Of a stretch of DNA of 64,000 bases, positions 7,150 through 21,367 are shown one piece after another. The position numbers were made by a program, and so were the translations under genes. Numbering within the stretch: the first letter of the stretch is position 1; each line of letters opens with the position of its first letter. Source of the DNA: Arthrobacter sp. FB24. GTDB taxonomy: Bacteria > Actinomycetota > Actinomycetes > Actinomycetales > Micrococcaceae. The notes under the pieces were generated by a model that ran no database searches, was not told where the DNA came from, and saw nothing but the letters and a program-made list of their open reading frames with translations. The DNA lies in the NCBI RefSeq assembly GCF_000196235.1, contig NC_008541.1, forward strand, positions 1,798,001 through 1,862,000, written 5' to 3'.

Positions 7150-9258
7150 GTGGCACCAAGTTCTGATTACACCGCCCGGCACCTGTCTGTACTGGAAGGC
7201 CTCGAGGCCGTCCGCAAGCGCCCGGGCATGTACATCGGTTCCACCGACTCCCGAGGCTTGATGCACTGCCTGTGGGAGATCATCGACAACTCCGTCGACG
7301 AGGCACTGGCCGGGTTCGGGCACGACATCAAGATCATCCTGCACGCCGACAACTCGGTGGAGATCCATGATGACGGACGAGGCATCCCCATTGACGTCGA
7401 ACCCAAGACCGGACTGACCGGCGTCGAGGTTGTGTTCACCAAGTTGCACGCCGGCGGAAAATTCGGCGGCGGCTCCTACACGGCGTCCGGCGGCCTGCAC
7501 GGCGTGGGCGCTTCGGTGGTCAATGCGCTCTCCTCCCGGCTGGACGTGGAAGTGGACCGCGGCGGCAAGACGTACAAAATGTCCTTCCGGCGCGGCGAAC
7601 CGGGGCGGTTCAAGGACCCGGGCACGAAGCCCGATCCCGCGGCGGCATTCGAACCGTTCGTCAATGACTCCGTCCTCGACGTCGTGGGTAAAGCCAAGCG
7701 CGGCGTCACCGGCACCCGGATCCGCTACTGGGCCGACCGCCAGATCTTCACCCCGGACGCCAAATTCTCATATGACGAGCTGGCCGCCCGGGCCCGGCAG
7801 ACTTCCTTCCTCATCCCGGGCCTTAAACTGACCGTCCGCGATCAGCGGCGGATTGCGGGCACCCCGGGCGAGCTGGCCGGCCACGAGGAAATCTTCCACC
7901 ACGATGGCGGCATCTCCGAGTTCGTCGACTTCCTCGCAGCGGATCCCGCGGTCACCGACACCTGGCGGCTGCACGGCTCGGGGAAGTTCAAGGAAACCGT
8001 TCCGGTCCTGGACGAGCGCGGCCACAGCCAGCTGGCCGAGGTCGAGCGCGACTGTGAAGTGGACGTGGCCCTTCGCTGGGGAATCGGCTACGACAGCACG
8101 GTCCGCAGCTTCGTCAACATCATCTCCACTCCCAAGGGCGGGACGCACCAGTCGGGCTTCGAGCAGGCGCTGGTGAAGACCTTCCGCAAGGCCGTGGAGA
8201 CAAACGCCCGCAAGCTCAAGGCCGGCAACGACAAGATCGAAAAAGATGACATTTTCGCGGGGCTGACTGCCGTGCTGACAGTGCGCCTGGCTGAGCCGCA
8301 GTTCGAGGGCCAGACCAAGGAGATCCTCGGCACGTCCGCGGTCCGGGCGATTGTTGCCCGGGTGGTGGAGAAGGAAATCAACGCGAAACTGAACTCGGCC
8401 AACCGCAATGACAAGGCGCAGTCCGCCCTTCTCCTGGAAAAAATCGTCAGCGAGATGAAGTCCCGCATTTCGGCGCGGGTGCACAAGGAGACGCAGCGGC
8501 GCAAGAACGCGCTGGAGACGTCATCGATGCCCACGAAGCTCGCCGATTGCCGCACCGATGACGTGGCGCGGTCGGAATTGTTCATTGTCGAGGGCGATTC
8601 CGCGCTGGGTACCGCAAAGCTGGCTCGTTCCTCGGACTTCCAGGCACTGCTGCCGATCCGGGGCAAGATCCTCAACGTCCAGAAGGCCTCGGTGGGGGAC
8701 ATGCTGTCAAACGCCGAGTGCGCGGCGCTGATCCAAGTGGTGGGTGCCGGGTCCGGGCGCAGCTTCGACATCAGTGCCGCACGCTACGGCAAAGTGATCC
8801 TCATGACCGACGCCGATGTGGACGGCGCCCACATCCGCACGCTGCTTCTCACCCTCTTCTTCCGCTACATGCGGCCCATGATCGATGAGGGCAGGGTGTT
8901 CGCCGCCGTGCCGCCGCTGCACCGGGTGGAGGTCATCAATGCCGGGCAGAAGGCCAACGAGATGATCTACACCTACTCCGAGGCCGAACTCCACGTCCTG
9001 CTGGCCAGGCTGGCCAAGGAGGGGAAGCGCTACAAGGAGCCCATCCAGCGCTACAAGGGCCTGGGTGAAATGGACGCCGAACAGCTGGCGGAGACCACCA
9101 TGGACCCGCGCCACCGGACACTGCGCAAGGTGGGGATCGAAAACGCCAAACAGGCGGAGGAAACGTTCGACCTGCTAATGGGCTCCGATGTCGCGCCGCG
9201 CAAGGACTTCATCATCGCCGGTGCTGCGGGCCTGGACCGGGAGCGGATCGACGCCTGA
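7150..9258 (+). CDS. parE: DNA topoisomerase IV subunit B
   Basis: A 702-residue type IIA topoisomerase ATPase subunit. Start GTG 7150 has GAAGGAG upstream. The GHKL ATPase domain shows EIIDNSVDEALAG (about residue 43) with the metal-binding Asn, DDGRGIP (about 75) and GGLHGVGASVVNALS. The TOPRIM domain shows FIVEGDSALG (about 480) and TDADVDGAHI (about 551). The C-terminus carries QRYKGLGEMDAEQL. I call it ParE rather than GyrB because gyrB in actinobacteria sits with dnaA/recF, while this copy is near sigA and 10 kb from a lone GyrA-type gene at 18869. It acts with that subunit to decatenate chromosomes. Confidence 0.93.
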   Translation: MAPSSDYTARHLSVLEGLEAVRKRPGMYIGSTDSRGLMHCLWEIIDNSVDEALAGFGHDIKIILHADNSVEIHDDGRGIPIDVEPKTGLTGVEVVFTKLHAGGKFGGGSYTASGGLHGVGASVVNALSSRLDVEVDRGGKTYKMSFRRGEPGRFKDPGTKPDPAAAFEPFVNDSVLDVVGKAKRGVTGTRIRYWADRQIFTPDAKFSYDELAARARQTSFLIPGLKLTVRDQRRIAGTPGELAGHEEIFHHDGGISEFVDFLAADPAVTDTWRLHGSGKFKETVPVLDERGHSQLAEVERDCEVDVALRWGIGYDSTVRSFVNIISTPKGGTHQSGFEQALVKTFRKAVETNARKLKAGNDKIEKDDIFAGLTAVLTVRLAEPQFEGQTKEILGTSAVRAIVARVVEKEINAKLNSANRNDKAQSALLLEKIVSEMKSRISARVHKETQRRKNALETSSMPTKLADCRTDDVARSELFIVEGDSALGTAKLARSSDFQALLPIRGKILNVQKASVGDMLSNAECAALIQVVGAGSGRSFDISAARYGKVILMTDADVDGAHIRTLLLTLFFRYMRPMIDEGRVFAAVPPLHRVEVINAGQKANEMIYTYSEAELHVLLARLAKEGKRYKEPIQRYKGLGEMDAEQLAETTMDPRHRTLRKVGIENAKQAEETFDLLMGSDVAPRKDFIIAGAAGLDRERIDA

Positions 9259-9282: not shown

Positions 9283-10287
9283 CTAGCCGAGCAGCCCGGG
9301 GACAATCAGCAGGGCTGTGGGCAATGCCAGCAGCAGCAGGCAGCCTGCGAGGACAAGGCCCCGCAGCGGAGCCGGCAGCGGGTCCTGGGGAGACAGCAGC
9401 CGGCTGACCCTGGATGCCGTGGTGCCGGCAGAACCGGCACCGCCGGACGCTCCCTGGATGCCGCCGTCGACTATTCCATCTGCTGCCGACGGAAGTCCGG
9501 CGCCGTTGAACCCCACCCGGCTGGCGGGCACACCGCTTGGTCCGCTGGCAACGATGGCGATCGCCTTGATCAGTGTGGCTTTGCTTTCGGTCTTCAGGGC
9601 GACGTCGTCAGCGAGCATTTCGATCAGGGAGCTCACGGCTTCCTGGGCTAGTCGGGTGGTCGGCAGCCAGGGGAGGGCCTGGCGCCACGCCGCGAAAGCC
9701 CACAGCAGGAGGTGGTGGCGCTGGCTCAGGTGGGCGTTCTCGTGGATCAGGACGGCGCGAAGCTCTGCAGGCTCCAGCGCCGCCATCAGGCCGTCGCTCA
9801 GGACGGTGACGGAGCGGGCGCCGCCGGGGAGGCAGTACGCCACGGGTGAATCGTGGTTGATGACCACGGTTCCCGGACCGTCCGTCGACGGTGACGCCAG
9901 AAGCGCCAGGAGTTCGCGGTGGCGCCTGCGCTGGCGTTCGATCCGGTAGTAGGTCAGCAGCAGGGTAAACACGAGGTGCGCGGTGAGGAGGGCCGCTGCC
10001 GACAGCGCGAAAAGGTGCCAGAACCCCAGTGCCGTCGTGGGCGCATCGAAAAGGACCATGCCGGCCAGACCGCGCAGTCCGGCCAGGAGATTGTCACCGA
10101 TCGGCTCGAGCCCGTAAACCAGCATGGCGCCGATCATTGACAGGCCGCCGGCGAGGCCGATCGCCTGCCAGAGCAGCATGGCGGTGAAAGGTGATCGGGC
10201 CGGCCATTGCGCGCGCGAAAGGAGGATAGGCACCGGCCACGCCAGGACTATCGCCAGGACCGCCAGCAAATATGAGGTCCAGAACAT
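9283..10287 (-). CDS. M56 family membrane metallopeptidase (BlaR1-like)
   Basis: A 334-residue integral membrane zinc protease. The motif HENAH at 182-186 is the HExxH metal site, and EMLADD about 40 residues later gives the third ligand. Hydrophobic helices lie near residues 4-24, 36-60 and 92-113, plus a C-terminal helix (GCLLLLALPTALLIV). It has no penicillin-binding sensor domain, unlike full-length BlaR1 (about 600 residues). It starts seven bases after the blaI stop, so the two are surely co-transcribed. In the family, the protease inactivates the partner BlaI repressor after a signal; the signal here is unknown, but the neighbouring cytochrome bd genes suggest a respiratory or envelope cue. 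Confidence 0.85.
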   Translation of the reverse strand: MFWTSYLLAVLAIVLAWPVPILLSRAQWPARSPFTAMLLWQAIGLAGGLSMIGAMLVYGLEPIGDNLLAGLRGLAGMVLFDAPTTALGFWHLFALSAAALLTAHLVFTLLLTYYRIERQRRRHRELLALLASPSTDGPGTVVINHDSPVAYCLPGGARSVTVLSDGLMAALEPAELRAVLIHENAHLSQRHHLLLWAFAAWRQALPWLPTTRLAQEAVSSLIEMLADDVALKTESKATLIKAIAIVASGPSGVPASRVGFNGAGLPSAADGIVDGGIQGASGGAGSAGTTASRVSRLLSPQDPLPAPLRGLVLAGCLLLLALPTALLIVPGLLG

Positions 10288-10293
10288 GCGCTA

Positions 10294-10680
10294 TTAGATG
10301 TGGCCAAGCAGTTTGCGCAGCGTTTCGGCTTCACTTTCGGTGACGGACCCAATAAAGCGGGCGAGGACAGCTTCGCGGTCCGGCGCCGATCCCAGAACCT
10401 CATGCATGAGTTCGGCGGTGTGGTCCGCCCGGCTGGACACGGCCTGATAGCGGTGGGGACGTGTGCCGCGTTCGCGTTCCACAAGCCCCTTCTTCTCCAG
10501 GCGTGACAGCACAGTCAGGACCGTGGTCACGGCGAGGTCCTTGCCTTCGTGGCCGGCGGTGCCGCCCTGGGCCTGGGTGCTCTGCGCCAGCAGGTCCCTC
10601 AGGGTGTTCGCGGTGGCCGCTTCCTGACCTGCCCAGAGCAGATCCATCACTGCCCGTTCCAGTTCACCAAGACTTGCCAT
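10294..10680 (-). CDS. BlaI/MecI/CopY family transcriptional repressor
   Basis: A 128-residue winged-helix repressor (MASLGELERAVMDLLWAG). The helix-turn-helix region continues through TVLTVLSRLEKKGLVERER, the typical BlaI DNA-recognition block. The C-terminal dimerisation part is SVTESEAETLRKLLGHI. I start at ATG 10680 because GAAGGA is eight bases upstream; an ATG at 10689 lies inside that ribosome site. It is followed directly by the M56 protease. Three matching palindromes lie between it and cydA. It probably represses itself and the cyd operon; that target set is inferred from site positions. Confidence 0.9.
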   Translation of the reverse strand: MASLGELERAVMDLLWAGQEAATANTLRDLLAQSTQAQGGTAGHEGKDLAVTTVLTVLSRLEKKGLVERERGTRPHRYQAVSSRADHTAELMHEVLGSAPDREAVLARFIGSVTESEAETLRKLLGHI

Positions 10681-10783
10681 TCCGTACATCCTTCTTAACG
10701 TTTCGATCCGCGAAGCCGGAGCGGCCTTCGCGGAACGTAGTTCGAATACTTGAGTTCTAAATTTACCTCTTTTTGCAGATTCT

Positions 10784-10800
10784 TTCTACATGAGGTAGAA
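10784..10800. promoter_or_regulatory. Predicted BlaI operator 1
   Basis: TTCTAC-ATGAG-GTAGAA is a perfect 6-base inverted repeat with a 5-base spacer. It lies on the blaI-proximal side of the divergent region, about 104 bases from the blaI start, where it could serve autoregulation. Confidence 0.65.
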
Positions 10801-10851
10801 CAATCGGCGCGCCGCACCCTTGCCACGGCCTGCGGCCGGTGGAACTGTTGG

Positions 10852-10881
10852 TTTACACTGCATGCCAAAGTGTTCTACACT
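10852..10881 (+). promoter_or_regulatory. Predicted cydA promoter
   Basis: A TTTACA -35 box (five of six matches) at 10852-10857, an 18-base spacer and a TACACT -10 box at 10876-10881. Operator 2 covers the -10, so a bound repressor would block polymerase. The TTG start of cydA is 73 bases downstream of the -10. Confidence 0.55.
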
Positions 10882-10889
10882 CTGTAGAA
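10873..10889. promoter_or_regulatory. Predicted BlaI operator 2 (on cydA -10)
   Basis: TTCTACA-CTC-TGTAGAA is a 7-base inverted repeat with a 3-base centre. Its CTACA/TGTAG core is the same as in known BlaI/MecI operators. It overlaps the predicted cydA -10 box. Confidence 0.7.
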
Positions 10890-10893
10890 GTTG

Positions 10894-10916
10894 GTCTTCT
10901 ACGAAGCGTAGAAGAC
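10894..10916. promoter_or_regulatory. Predicted BlaI operator 3 (extended palindrome)
   Basis: This is the longest of the three sites: 10-base arms (GTCTTCTACG and its complement) around AAG. Its centre is 24 bases from the centre of operator 2, between two and two-and-a-half helical turns, downstream of the predicted cydA transcription start. Confidence 0.7.
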
Positions 10917-10954
10917 TTGGACTGATGAAAGCCTAGCCAAAAGTAGGGACTGCC

Positions 10955-12553
10955 TTGGACGCTTTGGAAATCGCACGCTGGCAATTCGGAATCACCACCG
11001 TTTACCACTTCATGATGGTCCCGCTGACCATCGGGCTGGGCCTCGTGGTGGCAGTCATGCAGACGGTCTGGTACCGCACCGGCAAGCCGGAGTACCTGCG
11101 CATGACCAAGTTCTGGGGGAAGCTCTTCCTTATCAACTTCATCATGGGCGTCGCCACCGGCATCGTGCAGGAGTTCCAGTTCGGGATGGCGTGGAGCGAG
11201 TACAGCCGCTTCGTCGGTGACGTGTTCGGGGCGCCGCTGGCGCTCGAGGCACTGCTGGCCTTCTTCGTGGAATCCACTTTCCTGGGGCTGTGGATCTTCG
11301 GCTGGAAGCAGCTCAAGCGTGGAGTCCACCTGGCCTGCCTCTGGATTGCCGTCGTGGGATCCGTGTTCTCCGCGTACTTCATCATCGTGGCAAACAGCTG
11401 GATGCAGCATCCCGTCGGCGTGGAAATGATCAACGGCCGCCCGGTCATGACTGACGCCTGGGCGGTCTTCACCAACAACACCGCCCTCGTCGCGGTACCG
11501 CACACCCTCTTCGGCGCCTTGGCCGTAGCCGGCGGCTTCCTGCTGGGCATTGCCTGGTACCACCTCTGGCGCCGGCGCCACGACGGCATCGACACCGTTG
11601 GCCCGGACGGCAAGGTCATTCCCGGCGAAGCGGACATCCCCGGCCGGGACAAGGCTGACCACAAGGTCTGGCTCCGCTCGCTGCGGATCGGCGCCGTCGT
11701 CGCCATGATTTCATTCGCCGGCACGGCCCTCACCGGCGACCTCCAAGGCAAGCTGATGTTCGAACAGCAGCCCATGAAGATGGCCGCGGCCGAGGCCGCG
11801 TGCCACGACGGCACCGGCTTCTCCGTCCTGAGCGTCGGCAACCTCGGTTCGAAGAACTGTGACGACATCGTCGCCGTCATCGAGGTTCCCGGGATCCTGT
11901 CCTTCCTCGCCAAGGGCGACTTCACCACCGAGGTGAAGGGCGTCAACAGCCTGCTGGACCAGTACAAGGCCGACTACGGAACCCACCTACCGGACAACCC
12001 CATCTACGGCGACCGGGCAGGGCAGGAAATCGAGTACGTTCCGGTCATGGAGGTGACCTACTGGGGCTTCCGGATGATGATCGGTTTCGGCGGCCTGGCT
12101 GCCCTCGCGGCACTTGTGGCCCTCTGGCTGACCCGCAAGGGCACCGTGCCGGCGTCGCGTGGACTGATGCGGCTCGCAGTATTCGGCATCATGGCACCGT
12201 TCGGCGCTAACGCGGCCGGCTGGATCTTTACCGAAATGGGACGCCAGCCGTTCGTGGTGGCGCCCAACCCCGACCCCAGTGGGATCGACCAGGTGTTCAT
12301 GTTCACCGCCGCGGCTGTTTCACCGGGCGTTTCCGCCGGGGAACTGCTCACCTCCCTGGTGGTCCTGACCGCCGTGTATGCCGTGCTGCTGGTGGTGGAA
12401 GTGAAACTCCTCGTGAAGTACATCCGCGGCGGCGTCGTGTCCGCCATGCCCGAACTCGCCCACGCCCCGGCCGACGAAAACGAGGACGCCACACCCGGCC
12501 CCGGCACCGGGAAACCCGGCGGCTCCGACGACGTCCTGGCATTCGCCTACTAA
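10955..12553 (+). CDS. cydA: Cytochrome bd oxidase subunit I
   Basis: A 532-residue membrane subunit carrying the quinol site and hemes of cytochrome bd, the high-oxygen-affinity terminal oxidase. The TTG start at 10955 gives MDALEIARWQFG and is preceded by GTAGGGA. H18 in YHFMMVPLTIGLG fits the conserved N-terminal heme-ligand histidine, and GVATGIVQEFQFGMAWSEY is the family block of helix 3. The periplasmic Q-loop region contains a cysteine pair (AACHDG ... SKNCDD), probably disulphide bonded. The C-terminus is a charged cytoplasmic tail. It is first in the operon cydA-cydB-cydDC and likely repressed by BlaI. Confidence 0.96.
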   Translation: MDALEIARWQFGITTVYHFMMVPLTIGLGLVVAVMQTVWYRTGKPEYLRMTKFWGKLFLINFIMGVATGIVQEFQFGMAWSEYSRFVGDVFGAPLALEALLAFFVESTFLGLWIFGWKQLKRGVHLACLWIAVVGSVFSAYFIIVANSWMQHPVGVEMINGRPVMTDAWAVFTNNTALVAVPHTLFGALAVAGGFLLGIAWYHLWRRRHDGIDTVGPDGKVIPGEADIPGRDKADHKVWLRSLRIGAVVAMISFAGTALTGDLQGKLMFEQQPMKMAAAEAACHDGTGFSVLSVGNLGSKNCDDIVAVIEVPGILSFLAKGDFTTEVKGVNSLLDQYKADYGTHLPDNPIYGDRAGQEIEYVPVMEVTYWGFRMMIGFGGLAALAALVALWLTRKGTVPASRGLMRLAVFGIMAPFGANAAGWIFTEMGRQPFVVAPNPDPSGIDQVFMFTAAAVSPGVSAGELLTSLVVLTAVYAVLLVVEVKLLVKYIRGGVVSAMPELAHAPADENEDATPGPGTGKPGGSDDVLAFAY

Positions 12554-12572
12554 GCGCAGAGGAAATTCGACA

Positions 12573-13622
12573 ATGGAACTGCTGCCCACCATCTGGTTCA
12601 TCGCCATCGCGGTGTTGTGGACGGGATACCTCTTCCTCGAAGGATTCGACCTCGGCGTCGGAATGCTGATGAAGCTCTTCGCCCGCAACAACACCGAACG
12701 CCGTGTCCTGCTCAATACGATCGGACCCGTCTGGGACGGCAACGAGGTCTGGCTGCTGACGGCCGGCGGTGCCACCTTCGCCGCCTTCCCGCTCTGGTAC
12801 GCCTCACTGTTCTCCGCCCTCTACCTTCCCCTGCTGGTGGTCCTCGTGGCCCTCATCTTCCGTGCCGTGGCTTTCGAATACCGCGGCAAGGTGGACACCG
12901 ACCGCTGGCGCGCAGTGTGGGACTGGGCCATTGCGGCCGGATCCCTCGTCGCTGCATTCGGCGTCGGTGCGGCGCTTGCGCTGACCACCACCGGGCTTCC
13001 CATCAATGCGAACGGTGACCGCGAGGGCGGACCGTTCGCCTGGTTCAGCGGTTACGCCGTCCTGGGCGGGCTTGCCGTTGTGTGCTTCTCCCTGCTGCAC
13101 GCGCTGGCGTTCCTGGCACTGAAAACCGACGGTGACGTCAGGCACCGCGCCCGCAACTGGTTTGTCCGGCTCCTGCCCGTCCTCCTGCTCCCGATTGCCG
13201 GCTGGGCCATCAGCGTCCAGCTTCTCAGCGGCGAGGCCTGGACCATTGCGGCGGTTGCCGCTGCGGTTGTGGCCGCAGTGCTGGCCTGGCAATTCGGCCG
13301 GAACGGCCTGGAAGGGAAGGCGTTCCTGTCGCTGGGGGTGTTCCTGCTCCTCGGCAGCGCCTCAATCTTCGGTGCCGCCTTCCCGGTGGTGCTTCCCTCC
13401 ACCATCAACGCGGACTTTGACCTGACCATTTCCAATGCCTCTTCCTCCGACTACACGCTGGGTCTGATGAGCATCGTGGCCTGTGTGGGACTGCCGCTGG
13501 TGTTGGCATACCAGGCTTGGACCTACTGGGTGTTCCGCCGCCGGGTCAGCGCCGCCCACATTCCGGAAGCCCACAGCTTCCTTCCTGCCATCGCCGCCAG
13601 GGCACTGGCCCCCAAAGACTAG
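12573..13622 (+). CDS. cydB: Cytochrome bd oxidase subunit II
   Basis: A 349-residue membrane subunit of the bd oxidase. The N-terminus MELLPTIWFIAIAVLWTGYLFLEGFDLGVGML is a family hallmark (first helix with the GFDLGVG block), followed by NTIGPVWDGNEVWLLTAGGATFAAFP. Eight or so hydrophobic helices are visible. AGAGGAAA precedes ATG 12573, 19 bases after the cydA stop. It forms the heterodimer with CydA in the cytoplasmic membrane. Confidence 0.96.
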   Translation: MELLPTIWFIAIAVLWTGYLFLEGFDLGVGMLMKLFARNNTERRVLLNTIGPVWDGNEVWLLTAGGATFAAFPLWYASLFSALYLPLLVVLVALIFRAVAFEYRGKVDTDRWRAVWDWAIAAGSLVAAFGVGAALALTTTGLPINANGDREGGPFAWFSGYAVLGGLAVVCFSLLHALAFLALKTDGDVRHRARNWFVRLLPVLLLPIAGWAISVQLLSGEAWTIAAVAAAVVAAVLAWQFGRNGLEGKAFLSLGVFLLLGSASIFGAAFPVVLPSTINADFDLTISNASSSDYTLGLMSIVACVGLPLVLAYQAWTYWVFRRRVSAAHIPEAHSFLPAIAARALAPKD

Positions 13623-13628
13623 GACCCC

Positions 13629-16600
13629 ATGAGACCGCAGTTCCCGGCCGGCCCCGCAAACCGTCTCGCGCTCTATTGGCTGGGCCTCCTTGCGGCCCTC
13701 AAGGCATTGTCGCTGGTGCTCATGGCCCAGGCCGTGGCATCCGTCCTTGCCGGACTGGTCGCCCAGAACCCGGCCTGGGCCGAGCAGCTGGGTTGGGGAA
13801 TGGCCGGAGTCGTCCTTCGGTCCCTGACGGTTTGGGCCCAGGGCGTGGCGTCCCGCCGGGCCGCCCTGGGGGTCAAGGAGGAACTGCGGACGGCCCTGCT
13901 GGAACGGGCGTTGAGGAACGGCACCCGTGCGGCGGGCCCCTCCGACGGCGGCCTGGCCATCCTGGCCACGCGGGGCTTGGACGCGCTGGACAGCTACTAC
14001 ACCCAGTTCCTGCCGGCCCTCGTCAACTGCGCCGCCGTCCCGCTCCTGCTTGGCGCCCGGATCCTGCTCGCCGACTGGGTCAGCGCGGTGGTGGTCGTGC
14101 TGACTGTGCCACTGGTTCCGGTCTTCATGGTGCTGATCGGCCGCTACACCGAAGACCGGGTGCGGATCGCGCAATCGGCCCTGGCCAGGTTGTCCGGCCA
14201 CATGCTGGAACTGGCCAAAGGCCTGCCCGTGCTGGTGGGCCTGGGCCGGGCCACCGCCCAGCGGAAGGCACTGGAGGACATTTCCGAGCAGTACCGGTCC
14301 CGCACCATGGAAACCCTTCGGACAGCCTTCCTGTCCGCCCTCGCCCTGGAACTTATCGCCACGATCTCAGTCGCCGTTGTAGCCGTTTTCATCGGTGTTC
14401 GCCTGGTGCACGGGGACATGGCGCTTGAGGCCGGGCTGCTTGCCCTGATCCTGGCGCCGGACTGCTACCTGCCGCTGCGGGAACTGGGCACCGCCCACCA
14501 CGCCAGTGACGACGGCCGTGTTGCCCTGGCCGAGGTCACCGCGGTCATGGACGCACCCGAAGTCCAGCCCCTGCAGCCGCAGGCCGGCATCGGTGCCGAA
14601 GACGGCCTGCTCCCCGGGAAATTGGCGTCCGACGGCGGCGCGGACCTTCCGGCGGTAACCGTCAGCAATCTTGTGGTGGTGTACGGCGGACGGATGGAGC
14701 CCGCCGTCGGGCCGCTCAGCTTTGACGCGCCCGCAGGGCGGATCACCGCCCTCGACGGCGCCAGCGGGGCGGGTAAGAGCACCATCCTGGGCGTCCTGGC
14801 GGGAACCGTGGGCACCGGCGGCGGTGCCGTGGTGGGCGGAAGCATTGCGGGGTTTTCGCCATCGAGGGTGGCGTGGGTGCCGCAGCATCCGGTCATGGTG
14901 GAGAAAAGCGTGCTGGCCGAGGTGCGGCTCTACCTGGGGGATGGTGCCGCCACAGCCTCTTCCGGCAGCAGCACTGCCGCCGCTGCACAACGCTGCCTCG
15001 AAGCAGCCGGAGCCGGCCATCTGGCCGGGAAGCACCCCGCCGAACTCAGCCCGGGGGAGCTGCGCAGGGTTGCCCTGGCGCGCGGCCTGGCCCGGATTGA
15101 GGCCGGCGCGTCGCTGCTGCTGCTGGACGAACCCACCGCCCACCTGGACCGTGAATCCGCCAACGTGGTCAACGAATCCATCCGGAAACTGCGCGGCCGG
15201 GCCACCGTCCTGCTGGTGGCGCACGACCGTCTCACCCGCGAACTGGCGGATCACCTGGTAGCCGTGGGCGCAGGCTCCGCAACGGCCCGGCCGGTTACTG
15301 ACCCCGACAACGCTGCCGGGTTCCGGGAGGTCCCCGCAACAACGGCATCAGCGCCGGCAATGACGGCGCGGGCGGCGGAAGCCGGGGCGAAACAAGCCCC
15401 CGAACGCCGCACGCCAATCGGTACCCCCGCCGCTCCCGCCACCGGAACGCCCGCGGATGACGATAGGGCCGTCCCGGGACAATCCGGTGGCAACACGCCG
15501 GCCCGGATCTTCAGACTCCTGCAGCCGGAGTCCCTCAAATTCGGCTCAGCCGGCATCATGGGAGTCCTGGCAGCCCTCTTCGCCGTAGCCCTGGCGGGAC
15601 TGTCCGGCTGGCTCATCATCCGGGCCAGCGAGCAGCCGCCCATCCTGTACCTCCTCACGGCCATCGTCGGCGTGCGGTTCTTCGGCATCGGCAGGGCGGT
15701 CCTGCGCTACACGGAGCGGCTCCTGCTGCACGATGCCGTCTTCGCCTCGCTCACCAGGCTCCGCGGCCGGCTGTGGGATTCGCTAAGCCGCCGGGCGCTG
15801 TCCCTGCGCCGCCTGTTGCAGGGCGGCAACGTGCTGGGCGCGGTGATCGACGACGTCGACACCGTCCGGGACCTGCTTCCCCGGGTGGTCCTGCCGCCCG
15901 TGACCGCAGTGGCAGTGGGCGCCTCAGCAGTGGCGGCCTCAGCCCTGCTGCTGCCGGCCGCGCTGCCGGCGGCCATCGCTGCAGCTCTGGTGTCCCTTGC
16001 TGCCGCACCGGCGGCGGCCCTCCTGGCGGACAGGATGTCCGCGCAGGCCGAGCAGCGGCTCCGTTCCGGGGTTCTGCGTGACGTTGCCGCAGCGCTGGAT
16101 GCGCGGGCCGAACTGCACGCCAACGGAGTTGCGGGCCCGGTGCTGGCCGCCATCGGCGACGCCGACAAGGATGCAACAGCTGCCTCGCAGCGGTCCGCGT
16201 GGGCGGAAGGACTGGGCCAGGCGCTCACTGTCCTGGCCTGCGGCTCGGCGGCCCTGGCCAGTGCTGTGCTGGCCGGACCCGCGGTCATGGACGGCTCTGT
16301 GGCCCCGGCAACCGCCGCCGTCGTGGTCCTGCTGCAGTTGGCACTGGTGGATCCGTACGCCGCCATCACGACGGCGGTCCGCCAGTATCCGGCGCTCCGC
16401 CAGGTCCTGGACCGGATCAGCGAAGCGGGCGTTCTCGACGCTCCCGCTGCCGCGGACCCAGGCGCCAACGGTCCCCGGCAGGACGCATCCGGGCCGGCTG
16501 CCGGAACCGGCGGGCTGGAGCCGGTCGCATCACGCCCTGGCGGGCTGCCCGGCCTGGAGCTTCAGGCACTGTCCGCAGCGTGGCCTGGCAGCCCGGAGGT

Positions 16601-17222
16601 CTTCACCGGCGTCTCCGCAACGGCGGAACCCGGCCGCTGGCTGGCTGTGACAGGCGCCTCCGGATCCGGAAAATCCACCCTGCTCGCCGTGATGCTGGGG
16701 TTCCTGCCGCCGCATTCCGGCCGGCTGGCAGTCAGCGGACGGGCGGCCTGGTGTCCACAGGAGGCGCACCTCTTCGATTCCACCATCCGCGGCAACCTCA
16801 TGCTGGGCCGCCCGGAGGGCGCGGCCGGCGACGCCGGACAGGACATGGCTGCCGCCCTGGCCGCCGTGGGGCTGGAGCCCCTGCTGCGCCGGCTGGAACA
16901 TGGCGCCGACACCCGGATCGGGCCCGGCGGCGCGTTCCTGAGCGGCGGGGAACGTCAGCGGCTCGCTGTTGCCAGGACGCTCATGACCGGGGCGGATGTG
17001 ATCCTGCTGGACGAACCCACCGCACACCTTGACGCTGAGGCGGGCAGGGAGATGCTGGCTGACCTTCGCAAGGGGCTCACCGGACGGACCGTGGTATTGG
17101 TCACCCACAATCCTGACGACATTGACCCGGCAGACCGCAGGCTGGACCTTGACGCAGTAGCGGACACCGGCGTCGTTCCCCGGCCCAGAGGCCACCGCGG
17201 GACGGTGACGAGCGTGCACTGA
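13629..17222 (+). CDS. cydDC: Fused CydD-CydC thiol reductant ABC exporter
   Basis: A single 1197-residue chain containing both halves of the heterodimeric ABC exporter that sends cysteine/glutathione-type thiols to the periplasm and is needed to assemble bd oxidase. CydD half: membrane domain about 10-300, Walker A GASGAGKST near 377, signature LSPGE near 472 and Walker B LLLLDEPT near 496. A Pro/Ala/Thr-rich linker spans about 545-625. CydC half: membrane domain about 640-900, Walker A GASGSGKST near 1008, signature LSGGERQR near 1103 and Walker B ILLDEPT near 1125. The CydD signature has Pro in place of the first Gly. It begins six bases after cydB. Confidence 0.94.
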   Translation: MRPQFPAGPANRLALYWLGLLAALKALSLVLMAQAVASVLAGLVAQNPAWAEQLGWGMAGVVLRSLTVWAQGVASRRAALGVKEELRTALLERALRNGTRAAGPSDGGLAILATRGLDALDSYYTQFLPALVNCAAVPLLLGARILLADWVSAVVVVLTVPLVPVFMVLIGRYTEDRVRIAQSALARLSGHMLELAKGLPVLVGLGRATAQRKALEDISEQYRSRTMETLRTAFLSALALELIATISVAVVAVFIGVRLVHGDMALEAGLLALILAPDCYLPLRELGTAHHASDDGRVALAEVTAVMDAPEVQPLQPQAGIGAEDGLLPGKLASDGGADLPAVTVSNLVVVYGGRMEPAVGPLSFDAPAGRITALDGASGAGKSTILGVLAGTVGTGGGAVVGGSIAGFSPSRVAWVPQHPVMVEKSVLAEVRLYLGDGAATASSGSSTAAAAQRCLEAAGAGHLAGKHPAELSPGELRRVALARGLARIEAGASLLLLDEPTAHLDRESANVVNESIRKLRGRATVLLVAHDRLTRELADHLVAVGAGSATARPVTDPDNAAGFREVPATTASAPAMTARAAEAGAKQAPERRTPIGTPAAPATGTPADDDRAVPGQSGGNTPARIFRLLQPESLKFGSAGIMGVLAALFAVALAGLSGWLIIRASEQPPILYLLTAIVGVRFFGIGRAVLRYTERLLLHDAVFASLTRLRGRLWDSLSRRALSLRRLLQGGNVLGAVIDDVDTVRDLLPRVVLPPVTAVAVGASAVAASALLLPAALPAAIAAALVSLAAAPAAALLADRMSAQAEQRLRSGVLRDVAAALDARAELHANGVAGPVLAAIGDADKDATAASQRSAWAEGLGQALTVLACGSAALASAVLAGPAVMDGSVAPATAAVVVLLQLALVDPYAAITTAVRQYPALRQVLDRISEAGVLDAPAAADPGANGPRQDASGPAAGTGGLEPVASRPGGLPGLELQALSAAWPGSPEVFTGVSATAEPGRWLAVTGASGSGKSTLLAVMLGFLPPHSGRLAVSGRAAWCPQEAHLFDSTIRGNLMLGRPEGAAGDAGQDMAAALAAVGLEPLLRRLEHGADTRIGPGGAFLSGGERQRLAVARTLMTGADVILLDEPTAHLDAEAGREMLADLRKGLTGRTVVLVTHNPDDIDPADRRLDLDAVADTGVVPRPRGHRGTVTSVH

Positions 17223-18865: not shown

Positions 18866-18871
18866 AGTCTA
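18866..18871 (-). promoter_or_regulatory. Predicted -10 box of dinB-like gene inside the parC stop
   Basis: TAGACT on the minus strand sits six bases before ATG 18859. Its first three bases are the TAG stop codon of parC (18869-18871), so one short sequence would serve as both stop codon and promoter element. Confidence 0.5.
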
Positions 18872-21367
18872 GGCCCAGGTCATGCTGGGCCCAATGGCGT
18901 CCACTGCCTGCGACAGCGGGATGCCGGAGCCATCCCGGCGGCCATGTTCCTGCGGAAGCGACCGCGCCACTCCAGCCAGCGAGGACGCCTTGGCCGGACC
19001 GTGTCCTGCCCAGGCGATAAGGAGGGTGTCTTCGCCCTTCAGGAACCGGTGCGCACGAACTCCCGCAGTGGCCCGGCCCTTGGGCGGGTACTCCGCGAAC
19101 GCCGTCACCTTTCCGGCACCCGGAGCCGTGCCCGGCAGGGCGCCTTCGGTCCCGGACACCGTCACCACGACGGCGTCCTCGTCACCCGGGGCGACGGTGC
19201 CGAAGAACAGCACCTGGTCCCCGGCGCCCAGCTTGATTCCCGCCATGCCGCCCGCGGTGCGGCCCTGCGGACGGACATTTGCCGCGCTGAAGCGCAGCAG
19301 CTGGGCCTGTCGGGTCAGGAACACGAGGTCGACGTCGTCCGCCCCGGCGGGTTCTACGCCCACCACCGTGTCCTTGTCCTTGAGGGCAATGACTTCCCAG
19401 TCCTCGCGGTTGAGGGGATAGTCGGGCTGCACGCGTTTGACGATGCCCTGCGCCGTACCGATCGCCAGCACGGTGTCCAGCGGAGCGAACGCAACCAGCG
19501 TTTCGCCCTTCAGCAGCGTGATGAAGTCTTTGGCCGGGACGCCGCCGGCCAGGTTGGGAAGCCCCGACATCGGCGGGAGCACGGGCATGTCCATGACCTG
19601 GAGGCGCAGCATCCGGCCCAGTGACGTGACGGCGGCGATCTCGCCGCGCGCGGAGGTTTTCACCACCGACCGGAAGACGTCGTGTTTTGACCGCGGACCG
19701 GACTCGGTGAGCGGCTCCTGGTTGGAGGTCCGGGCGATCTGTCCGCTGGCGGTCAGGATGGCCCAGCAGGGGTCATCGGCTATTTCCAGTGCGAGGGGGG
19801 CAGCCTTCCCCTTGCCGCCGCGTGCAGCAGCCAGCGCGGCGACGGTGGGGGAGACCGCCTCGGACTCGAGGAGGACCGTCCGGCGGGGCGTGCCGTACTT
19901 CTCGGCGATTTCGCCAAGCTCGTCGGACACCAGTTCGCGCAGGCGCTGGTCCGAACCCAGGATGGCCTCCAGCTCCGCGATTTCACGCTTCAGCTGGTCC
20001 TGCTCTTTTTCGAGCTCGATCCGGGAGTACTTGGTCAGCTGCCGGAGCCGGAGTTCCAGGATGTAGTTCGCCTGGATTTCGGTGAGATCGTAGATGGACA
20101 TGAGGCGTTCGCGGGCGGCGGAGACCTCGTCGGAGGACCGGATGATCTGGATGACCTCATCGATGTCAACGATGGCGATCAGGAGGCCCTCCACCAGGTG
20201 GAGGCGGTCCTTCTTCTTCTCCAGCCGGAAGGCCGTGCGCCGCCGCACCACGTTGATGCGGTGGTCGACATAGACGGAGAGGAGCTGCACCAGTCCCAGC
20301 GTCTGCGGCTGGCCGTCCACCAGGGTGACGTTGTTGATGCCGAAGGAATCTTCCATGGGCGAGTACCGGTAGAGCTGCTGGAGCACGGCGTTCGGATTGA
20401 AGCCGTTCTTCAGCTCGATGACCAGCCGCAGGCCGTGCTTGCGGTCCGTGAGGTCCACGATGTCGCTGATGCCGGTCAGCTTCTTGCCGTTGACGGCGTC
20501 CTTGATCTTCTCGATCACCTTCTCCGGGCCCACCATGTAGGGAAGCTCGGTGACCACCAGTCCGGTGCGGCGGGCGGACAGCTGTTCAACCTCCACCTTG
20601 GCGCGTGTCTTGAACGAGCCACGGCCCGTGGCGTACGCGTCGCGGATGCCGTCCAGTCCCACGATCCGTCCGCCGGTGGGCAGGTCCGGTCCGGGGACGA
20701 ACCGCATGAGGTCCTCGAGGGTGGCCTCCGGGTTCGCAATCAGGTGCCTTGCAGCGGAGATGACCTCCACGAGGTTGTGCGGGGCCATGTTCGTGGCCAT
20801 GCCGACGGCGATACCGGTGGCGCCGTTGACCAGCAGGTTGGGGAAAGCCGCGGGGAGGACATCCGGCTGGGTCAGCTGGTTGTCGTAGTTGGGGACAAAG
20901 TCCACCACGTCTTCGTCGAGGTGATCGGTGAGGCTGAGCGCTGCCGCCGCCAGGCGGGCCTCGGTGTACCGCGGGGCCGCCGGGCCGTCGTCGAGCGAGC
21001 CGAAGTTGCCGTGGCCGTCTATCAAAGGCAGCCGCAGCGAAAAGTCCTGCGCCATGCGGACCATGGCGTCGTAGATCGCCGTATCGCCGTGCGGGTGCAG
21101 CTTGCCCATGACTTCGCCCACCACGCGGGCGCTTTTCACGTGGCCACGGTCCGGACGCAGGCCCATCTCGCTCATCATGTAGAGAATGCGCCGCTGCACC
21201 GGCTTCAGGCCGTCGCGGGCGTCCGGGAGGGCCCGCGAATAGATGACCGAATAGGCGTACTCGAGGAACGAGCCTTCCATTTCCGACGTGACGTCGATGT
21301 CAACGATGTTCTCGGTGTAGTCCTGGACGGCGTCCCCTGCCGGGGCGGAACTTTGGCGGCGGGCCAT
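18869..21367 (-). CDS. parC: DNA topoisomerase IV subunit A
   Basis: An 832-residue type IIA topoisomerase breakage-reunion subunit. The N-terminal winged-helix region has [18 protein letters not shown] and [17 protein letters not shown]; the catalytic tyrosine is Y134 in APRYTEARL. Coiled-coil and gate helices follow (about 360-490). The C-terminal DNA-wrapping beta-propeller has blades such as [13 protein letters not shown] and [10 protein letters not shown]. It pairs with ParE at 7150. I prefer ParC to GyrA because of the location and because I see no clear GyrA-box (QRRGGKG). Divergent from the GNAT/acyl-CoA synthetase gene with a 53-base gap. Confidence 0.92.

Follow-up and report, generated by a model that had tools for sequence, protein, structure and literature searches.

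BlaI-type repressors are usually taken to be regulators of antibiotic resistance. Here we describe one whose predicted targets are respiratory genes. It is encoded in a window of 64,000 nucleotides from Arthrobacter sp. FB24 (contig NC_008541.1, positions 1,798,001 to 1,862,000), in which blaI and the gene for an M56-type membrane protease lie beside the cydABDC genes of cytochrome bd oxidase. Unlabelled positions below are those of the window. Two described systems resemble it most. In BlaR1-BlaI of Staphylococcus aureus, as here, a PF03965 repressor is paired with a membrane gluzincin carrying HEXXH and ExxxD motifs (described for BlaR1 in the available part of PMC9834060). In BlaI-BlaR of Mycobacterium tuberculosis (Rv1846c-Rv1845c), there is again a BlaI homologue and a BlaR that lacks the sensor. 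According to the accessible portions of the sources, the mycobacterial BlaI binds the promoters of cytochrome bd and ATP synthase (PMC5473688, citing Sala et al. 2009) and gives a gel shift at the Rv1303 promoter (PMC12565901), while the atp genes are predicted BlaI targets and SenX3/RegX3 is a regulator of cydB (PMC7924339). Because PMC5473688 cites BlaI at the cytochrome bd promoter, control of cyd by BlaI is already known and is not new here. The accessible portions of PMC11561320, PMC5148154, PMC8765290, PMC10581053 and PMC7761784 hold nothing on BlaI together with cyd. No published account of the wider regulon or of a conserved blaI-M56-cyd module was found in a search made mostly at title and abstract level, with most subscription journals outside its reach.

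The Arthrobacter locus differs from that of M. tuberculosis, known here through citing papers, in that blaI-M56 is divergent from cydABDC with three candidate operators between them, their half-site being TTCTAC, and in that the predicted targets include genes for haem, iron-sulphur (Fe-S) clusters, cytochrome c maturation and flavohaemoglobin. We consider it likely that these palindromes are BlaI operators, and that BlaI represses cydABDC, blaI-M56 and dispersed respiratory, haem and Fe-S genes until the M56 protease inactivates it.

Scanning the window with up to two mismatches gave three perfect copies of TTCTAC-N5-GTAGAA, all between blaI/M56 and cydABDC, and no fourth site (shuffled windows average 0.34). 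Candidate operator 1 (TTCTACATGAGGTAGAA, 10784..10800) precedes the blaI start by about 95 bases. Candidate operator 2 (TTCTACACTCTGTAGAA, 10873..10889) and candidate operator 3 (TTCTACGAAGCGTAGAA, 10897..10913) are 24 bases apart, start to start, and the third lies within a longer palindrome (10894-10916) with arms of 10 bases each, 10894-10903 and 10907-10916. A consensus scan of 10650-10990 returned a single promoter, TTTACA-N18-TACACT on the plus strand at 10852..10881, with 9 of 12 consensus matches (shuffles average 0.2). This is the predicted cydA promoter; its −35 box begins at 10852, and its −10 box (10876-10881) falls inside operator 2. When the region was aligned with 77 named relatives, the −10 columns were 0.97 identical and the three sites 0.91, 0.94 and 0.85 in order, whereas the −35 columns were only 0.62 identical and the stretch 10805-10845 was 58% identical. 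The sequence-only reading of this DNA had described the three palindromes, their spacing, the long arms of the third and the overlap of the second with the −10 box, all of which we find as it described them. It had also noticed the palindrome nowhere else; this is true of the window, whereas the rest of the genome contains eight more perfect sites.

That reading had proposed a search upstream of cydA in relatives, and the palindrome is indeed kept there. For this we used a set of one genome per genus (32 genomes, two from the genus of the window), and counted a site if it lay between 500 bases before and 50 bases after the start of the match. Every cydA locus in genomes with BlaI has a perfect site (26/26). 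At hemQ the site is perfect in 16/27 loci and has at most one mismatch in 20/27; the corresponding figures are 1/28 and 19/28 for the ATP-synthase leader (a Cg1360-family gene), 2/27 and 16/27 for sufR, and 1/28 and 4/28 for qcrC. The counts for these four genes are without one or two matching genomes, at no more than 30 loci per gene. Of 59 permuted palindromes tried on the BlaI-bearing loci, none occurs in perfect form at these five genes, and with one mismatch allowed the most loci that any of them hits is one, at qcrC. Among loci without a close BlaI, sites are present at 1/2 for cydA and at 0/2, 0/3, 0/2 and 0/3 for qcrC, hemQ, the ATP-synthase leader and sufR. The one positive, G011, has only a distant BlaI, namely a diverged protein with an M56-like gene beside it elsewhere in the genome. 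In several other genera a variant with ATCTAC can be read about 850 bases upstream of qcrC, which may be the position of ctaE. Closer to the window, the best 80 of 542 relatives by BlaI gave 78 named loci of the Arthrobacter lineage with cydA (L374 and L377 had none in the DNA examined; the alignment above also leaves out L440). Three perfect intergenic sites are present in 77 of these and two in the other.

Across the family (149 genomes from 31 genera, counted without weighting for relatedness), the palindrome is present almost only together with a BlaI gene of the neighbouring type. At least two perfect sites are found in 122 of the 126 genomes with a close BlaI (mean 5.5). None of the 19 genomes without a BlaI match has two sites, although two have one, and the four with only a distant BlaI have one each. 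The reversed pattern, used as a control, occurs 63 times in the 149 genomes, against 694 for the real one. The four exceptions (G043, G060, G087 and G100) all have the arrangement blaI-M56-cydA with one adjoining site, which is perfect except in G087, where it has one mismatch. Their two genera are represented in the one-per-genus set by G005 and G014, which have neither BlaI nor a cydA match.

In the genome of the window (G000, 5.07 Mb), perfect sites number 11 where base composition predicts 0.04, and sites with one mismatch number seven, against 1.9 expected. Away from the window, perfect sites adjoin a flavohaemoglobin gene with an Rrf2/NsrR-like gene, HemQ with ferrochelatase, and YceI. 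Three more (C1:97297, C2:40601 and C3:36382; L007-L009) repeat one and the same sequence, each on a different smaller contig, with ResB on one side and a frame that looks TlpA-like by eye on the other; the contigs measure 159, 115 and 96 kb, and the near flanks of the operator are identical. A further perfect site, C1:75121, is beside a degraded frame, again TlpA-like by eye. The last adjoins a membrane protein of 125 residues (L013:2961-3338; C4:4624960-4625337) that matches no Pfam or NCBIfam family. Four of the one-mismatch sites lie by a QcrC-like cytochrome c, the ATP-synthase leader gene (whose 39.9 bits fall just short of the cut-off of 40), SufR-like/SufB genes together with a divergently oriented ABC ATPase gene, and, at a distance of 213 bases, sucC. 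Two others are by a small membrane frame that is followed by a DUF255 thioredoxin-like gene and by a membrane protein of 116 residues; the seventh is inside a frame of 508 codons. The earlier proposal of direct BlaI/M56 control of cytochrome bd survives in part. The palindromes track BlaI and sit on the predicted cydA promoter, but the proposal was too narrow, as other respiratory, haem and Fe-S genes carry them too.

To assess the regulon in relatives, we selected 60 regions that surround perfect sites in 12 genomes and compared them with the target proteins of the window genome. The set omits the cyd sites of eight genomes, the site at hemQ in G025 and a few more; where a site had no match, its neighbours were scanned if genes could be called there, and two perfect sites in G012 (L253 and L258) were given no target. 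The membrane protein of 125 residues is beside an operator in 11 of the 12 genomes, spanning five genera, and HemQ in 10. The flavohaemoglobin-Rrf2 pair and YceI with TlpA and ResB nearby also recur, SufR/SufB is a neighbour in two genomes, and blaI-M56 itself in two where that region was taken. Some neighbours are seen in one genome only. Those in G012 are SURF1, isocitrate lyase, a membrane subunit of succinate dehydrogenase at a distance of 259 bases, and a UbiA-family protein that by eye is CtaB-like; in G008 HemA and HemE are encoded divergently, and G142 has VKOR. COX2 behind an Fe-S biogenesis gene is near sites in G012 and G008, and a CtaG-CopD protein near sites in G012 and G142. An FMN-binding pyridoxamine-oxidase-like protein (PF12900) is directly beside a perfect site in three genomes, G012, G009 and G038; the three copies, not listed in that order, are L271:3020-3463, L291:3028-3462 and L256:2487-2975. 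Neither neighbour of L265 matches a Pfam family, and CopC near L260, 730 bases from the site, was not accepted as a target. Although G012 lacks a cydA match, it has 15 perfect sites, some of them by aa3-assembly, succinate dehydrogenase and haem genes. G142 has two copies of cydAB (L304 and L306), each with two perfect operators 25 bases apart.

The arrangement is not confined to the family. Other families of the order and class supplied 50 cydA loci, of which nine have blaI-M56 adjacent (within 1.5 kb, by similarity to the window proteins), and eight of the nine have a perfect operator, which is of the TTCTAC type in three and of the type TACKAC-N5-GTMGTA in five. A perfect operator is found at 4 of the 41 loci without adjacent blaI-M56 (L336, L341, L351 and L354), while 179 permuted half-site pairs hit at most two of the 50 loci (mean 0.02). 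When the entire loci were scanned for the TACKAC type with up to one mismatch, every match was just upstream of cydA. These counts exclude L358-L361, which are distant CydA paralogues, and matches for which no locus was retrieved; L358 nevertheless has BlaI beside it and a perfect site. The putative recognition helix AYTTVMTVLDRL is present at all five TACKAC loci, and comparison of the sequences is suggestive of covariation between recognition helix and half-site, although L358 and L442/L443 do not fit.

The flanking genes have the identities that were first read from their translations. BlaI (10294..10689, minus strand; 131 residues, with an ATG at 10680 as alternative start) matches PF03965 with 74.2 bits (E 1.4e-20, cut-off 22.6), which places this predicted winged-helix repressor in the BlaI/MecI family. 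It shares a superfamily with the CopY/TcrY copper repressors, but its match to their equivalog profile TIGR02698 is weak, at 27.9 bits against a cut-off of 121.95. Members of the BlaI/MecI family have palindromic operators at their own promoter and at their targets, and here candidates for both are seen, by comparative genomics only. Its closest named relatives, among the best 80 of 542, are the proteins of Arthrobacter sp. Leaf337 and SPG23, identical over 130 and 131 residues. The sole match in a sequence search of the PDB is 2g9w from M. tuberculosis (E 8e-16), whose chain is named 'conserved hypothetical protein' and which we take to be M. tuberculosis BlaI. The BlaI of the window is the one full-length member of the family in its genome. 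A second PF03965 match (C4:588770-588916, L022) covers 52 positions only, with 23.3 bits against the cut-off of 22.6, inside a frame of 296 codons.

On the other side, the genes on the plus strand (10955-17222) encode CydA (10955..12553, TTG start; PF01654, E 3e-152), CydB (12573..13622; TIGR00203, 288.8 bits against a cut-off of 117.3) and a fusion of the thiol exporter subunits CydD and CydC (13629..17222; TIGR02857 744.7 bits and TIGR02868 697.5 bits in one open reading frame), the fusion being a single protein of 1197 residues. The whole block stands between genes that by eye resemble the two topoisomerase IV subunits, at 7150-9258 and 18869-21367.

The M56 gene (9283..10287, minus strand) encodes a protein of 334 residues that looks like BlaR1 minus its penicillin sensor. 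It passes the Pfam M48 profile (39.9 bits, cut-off 20.3) and, unlike S. aureus BlaR1, falls below the cut-off for M56 (22.0 bits against 31). The gluzincin motifs H182-E-N-A-H186 and E223-M-L-A-D227 are invariant in 21 sequences including that of the window, so that the HEXXH and ExxxD motifs of BlaR1/MecR1 are present on a transmembrane scaffold. The predicted fold, built from the 21 sequences, aligns to BlaR1 over residues 3 to 292; an earlier model from five sequences (mean predicted local distance difference test score 55.7) was not used. Neither the Pfam scan nor the predicted structure shows the C-terminal extracellular penicillin-binding domain of the staphylococcal protein, in agreement with the sequence-only reading, and the chain stops just after its final predicted helix (306-333). 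Searching the PDB with the sequence of this protein gave nothing useful. An intramembrane histidine pair, H91/H104, was considered as a haem or quinone site and dropped because it is not conserved in at least 90% of 40 M56 sequences.

By analogy with BlaR1-BlaI of Staphylococcus, we infer that BlaI binds as a dimer and represses, and that repression ends when the M56 protease cleaves or removes it. Dimers on sites 2 and 3 would cover the cydA −10 box and the early transcript, and with a further dimer on site 1 upstream of blaI both directions would be repressed. Once a membrane signal had activated the protease, loss of BlaI would let the expression of the respiratory genes rise together. The signal is most likely a disturbed respiratory membrane or a disturbed supply of haem or Fe-S cofactors, sensed by the transmembrane part of the protease, because there is no extracellular ligand domain and because the predicted targets make the respiratory chain.

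A narrower version of the signal is compatible with the same operators and repressor. The protease could respond to failure of haem, copper or Fe-S supply, or to damage by nitric oxide, and not to hypoxia or respiratory inhibition as the sequence-only reading proposed. We give this a little less than even weight. HemQ, ferrochelatase, suf, flavohaemoglobin and ResB are all site neighbours, as are HemA/HemE, SURF1, the CtaB-like UbiA-family protein and CtaG-CopD in relatives, and the accessible part of PMC7058343 reports that blaR (rv1845c) was essential on haem or haemoglobin iron in a transposon screen of M. tuberculosis. However, a general energy signal would be equally consistent with the ATP-synthase leader and sucC, and with the succinate dehydrogenase of a relative.

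The other readings concern the palindromes themselves or the role of BlaI. Since an Rrf2-family gene and a SufR-like gene adjoin sites in the window genome, the palindromes could belong to one of these dimeric regulators, or to one not recognised, with BlaI near cyd for other reasons. This is very unlikely. The sites are lost with BlaI and not with SufR: SufR-like matches are present in all 32 one-per-genus genomes, and the three sufR loci without BlaI have no site. In addition, blaI is within 1.5 kb of 25 of 28 cydA loci in the family, its usual form being a divergent neighbour, and the blaI-M56-cyd arrangement persists in other families, where the half-site is altered. We regard it as very unlikely that the system answers to beta-lactams with the respiratory targets as a side branch, even though the accessible parts of PMC8265638 and PMC5473688 have the M. 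tuberculosis homologue also repressing blaC. In contrast to M. tuberculosis, no beta-lactamase target was identified in the window genome among the recognised neighbours of its 18 perfect or one-mismatch sites, where the flanking open reading frames were scanned in part, and the protease lacks the sensor domain; the predicted targets are respiratory and not, as in S. aureus, resistance genes. As inverted repeats in a leader region the palindromes might also be RNA hairpins or terminators, which is hardly credible and was rejected: site 2 overlaps the predicted −10 box and would therefore be mostly upstream of the transcript, the lone terminator-like match in the region (10806-10818, minus strand) is outside all three sites, and over 127 distinct sites, chosen as perfect, the motif is 17 bases with constant letters and spacing and variable flanks.

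Whether BlaI and a sensor-less M56 protease are an old actinobacterial master switch for respiration, acting on bd oxidase, bc1-aa3, succinate dehydrogenase, ATP synthase and the assembly of haem, cytochrome c and Fe-S clusters together, with the beta-lactamase role a later side branch, is in our judgement evenly balanced. The conserved core of the BlaI system appears to be energy metabolism. Seen in this light, actinobacterial BlaR proteins that lack the sensor probably monitor the respiratory membrane, and there is a reason for the presence of mycobacterial BlaI on the promoters of cytochrome bd and ATP synthase. The signal for BlaR also becomes testable in harmless soil bacteria.
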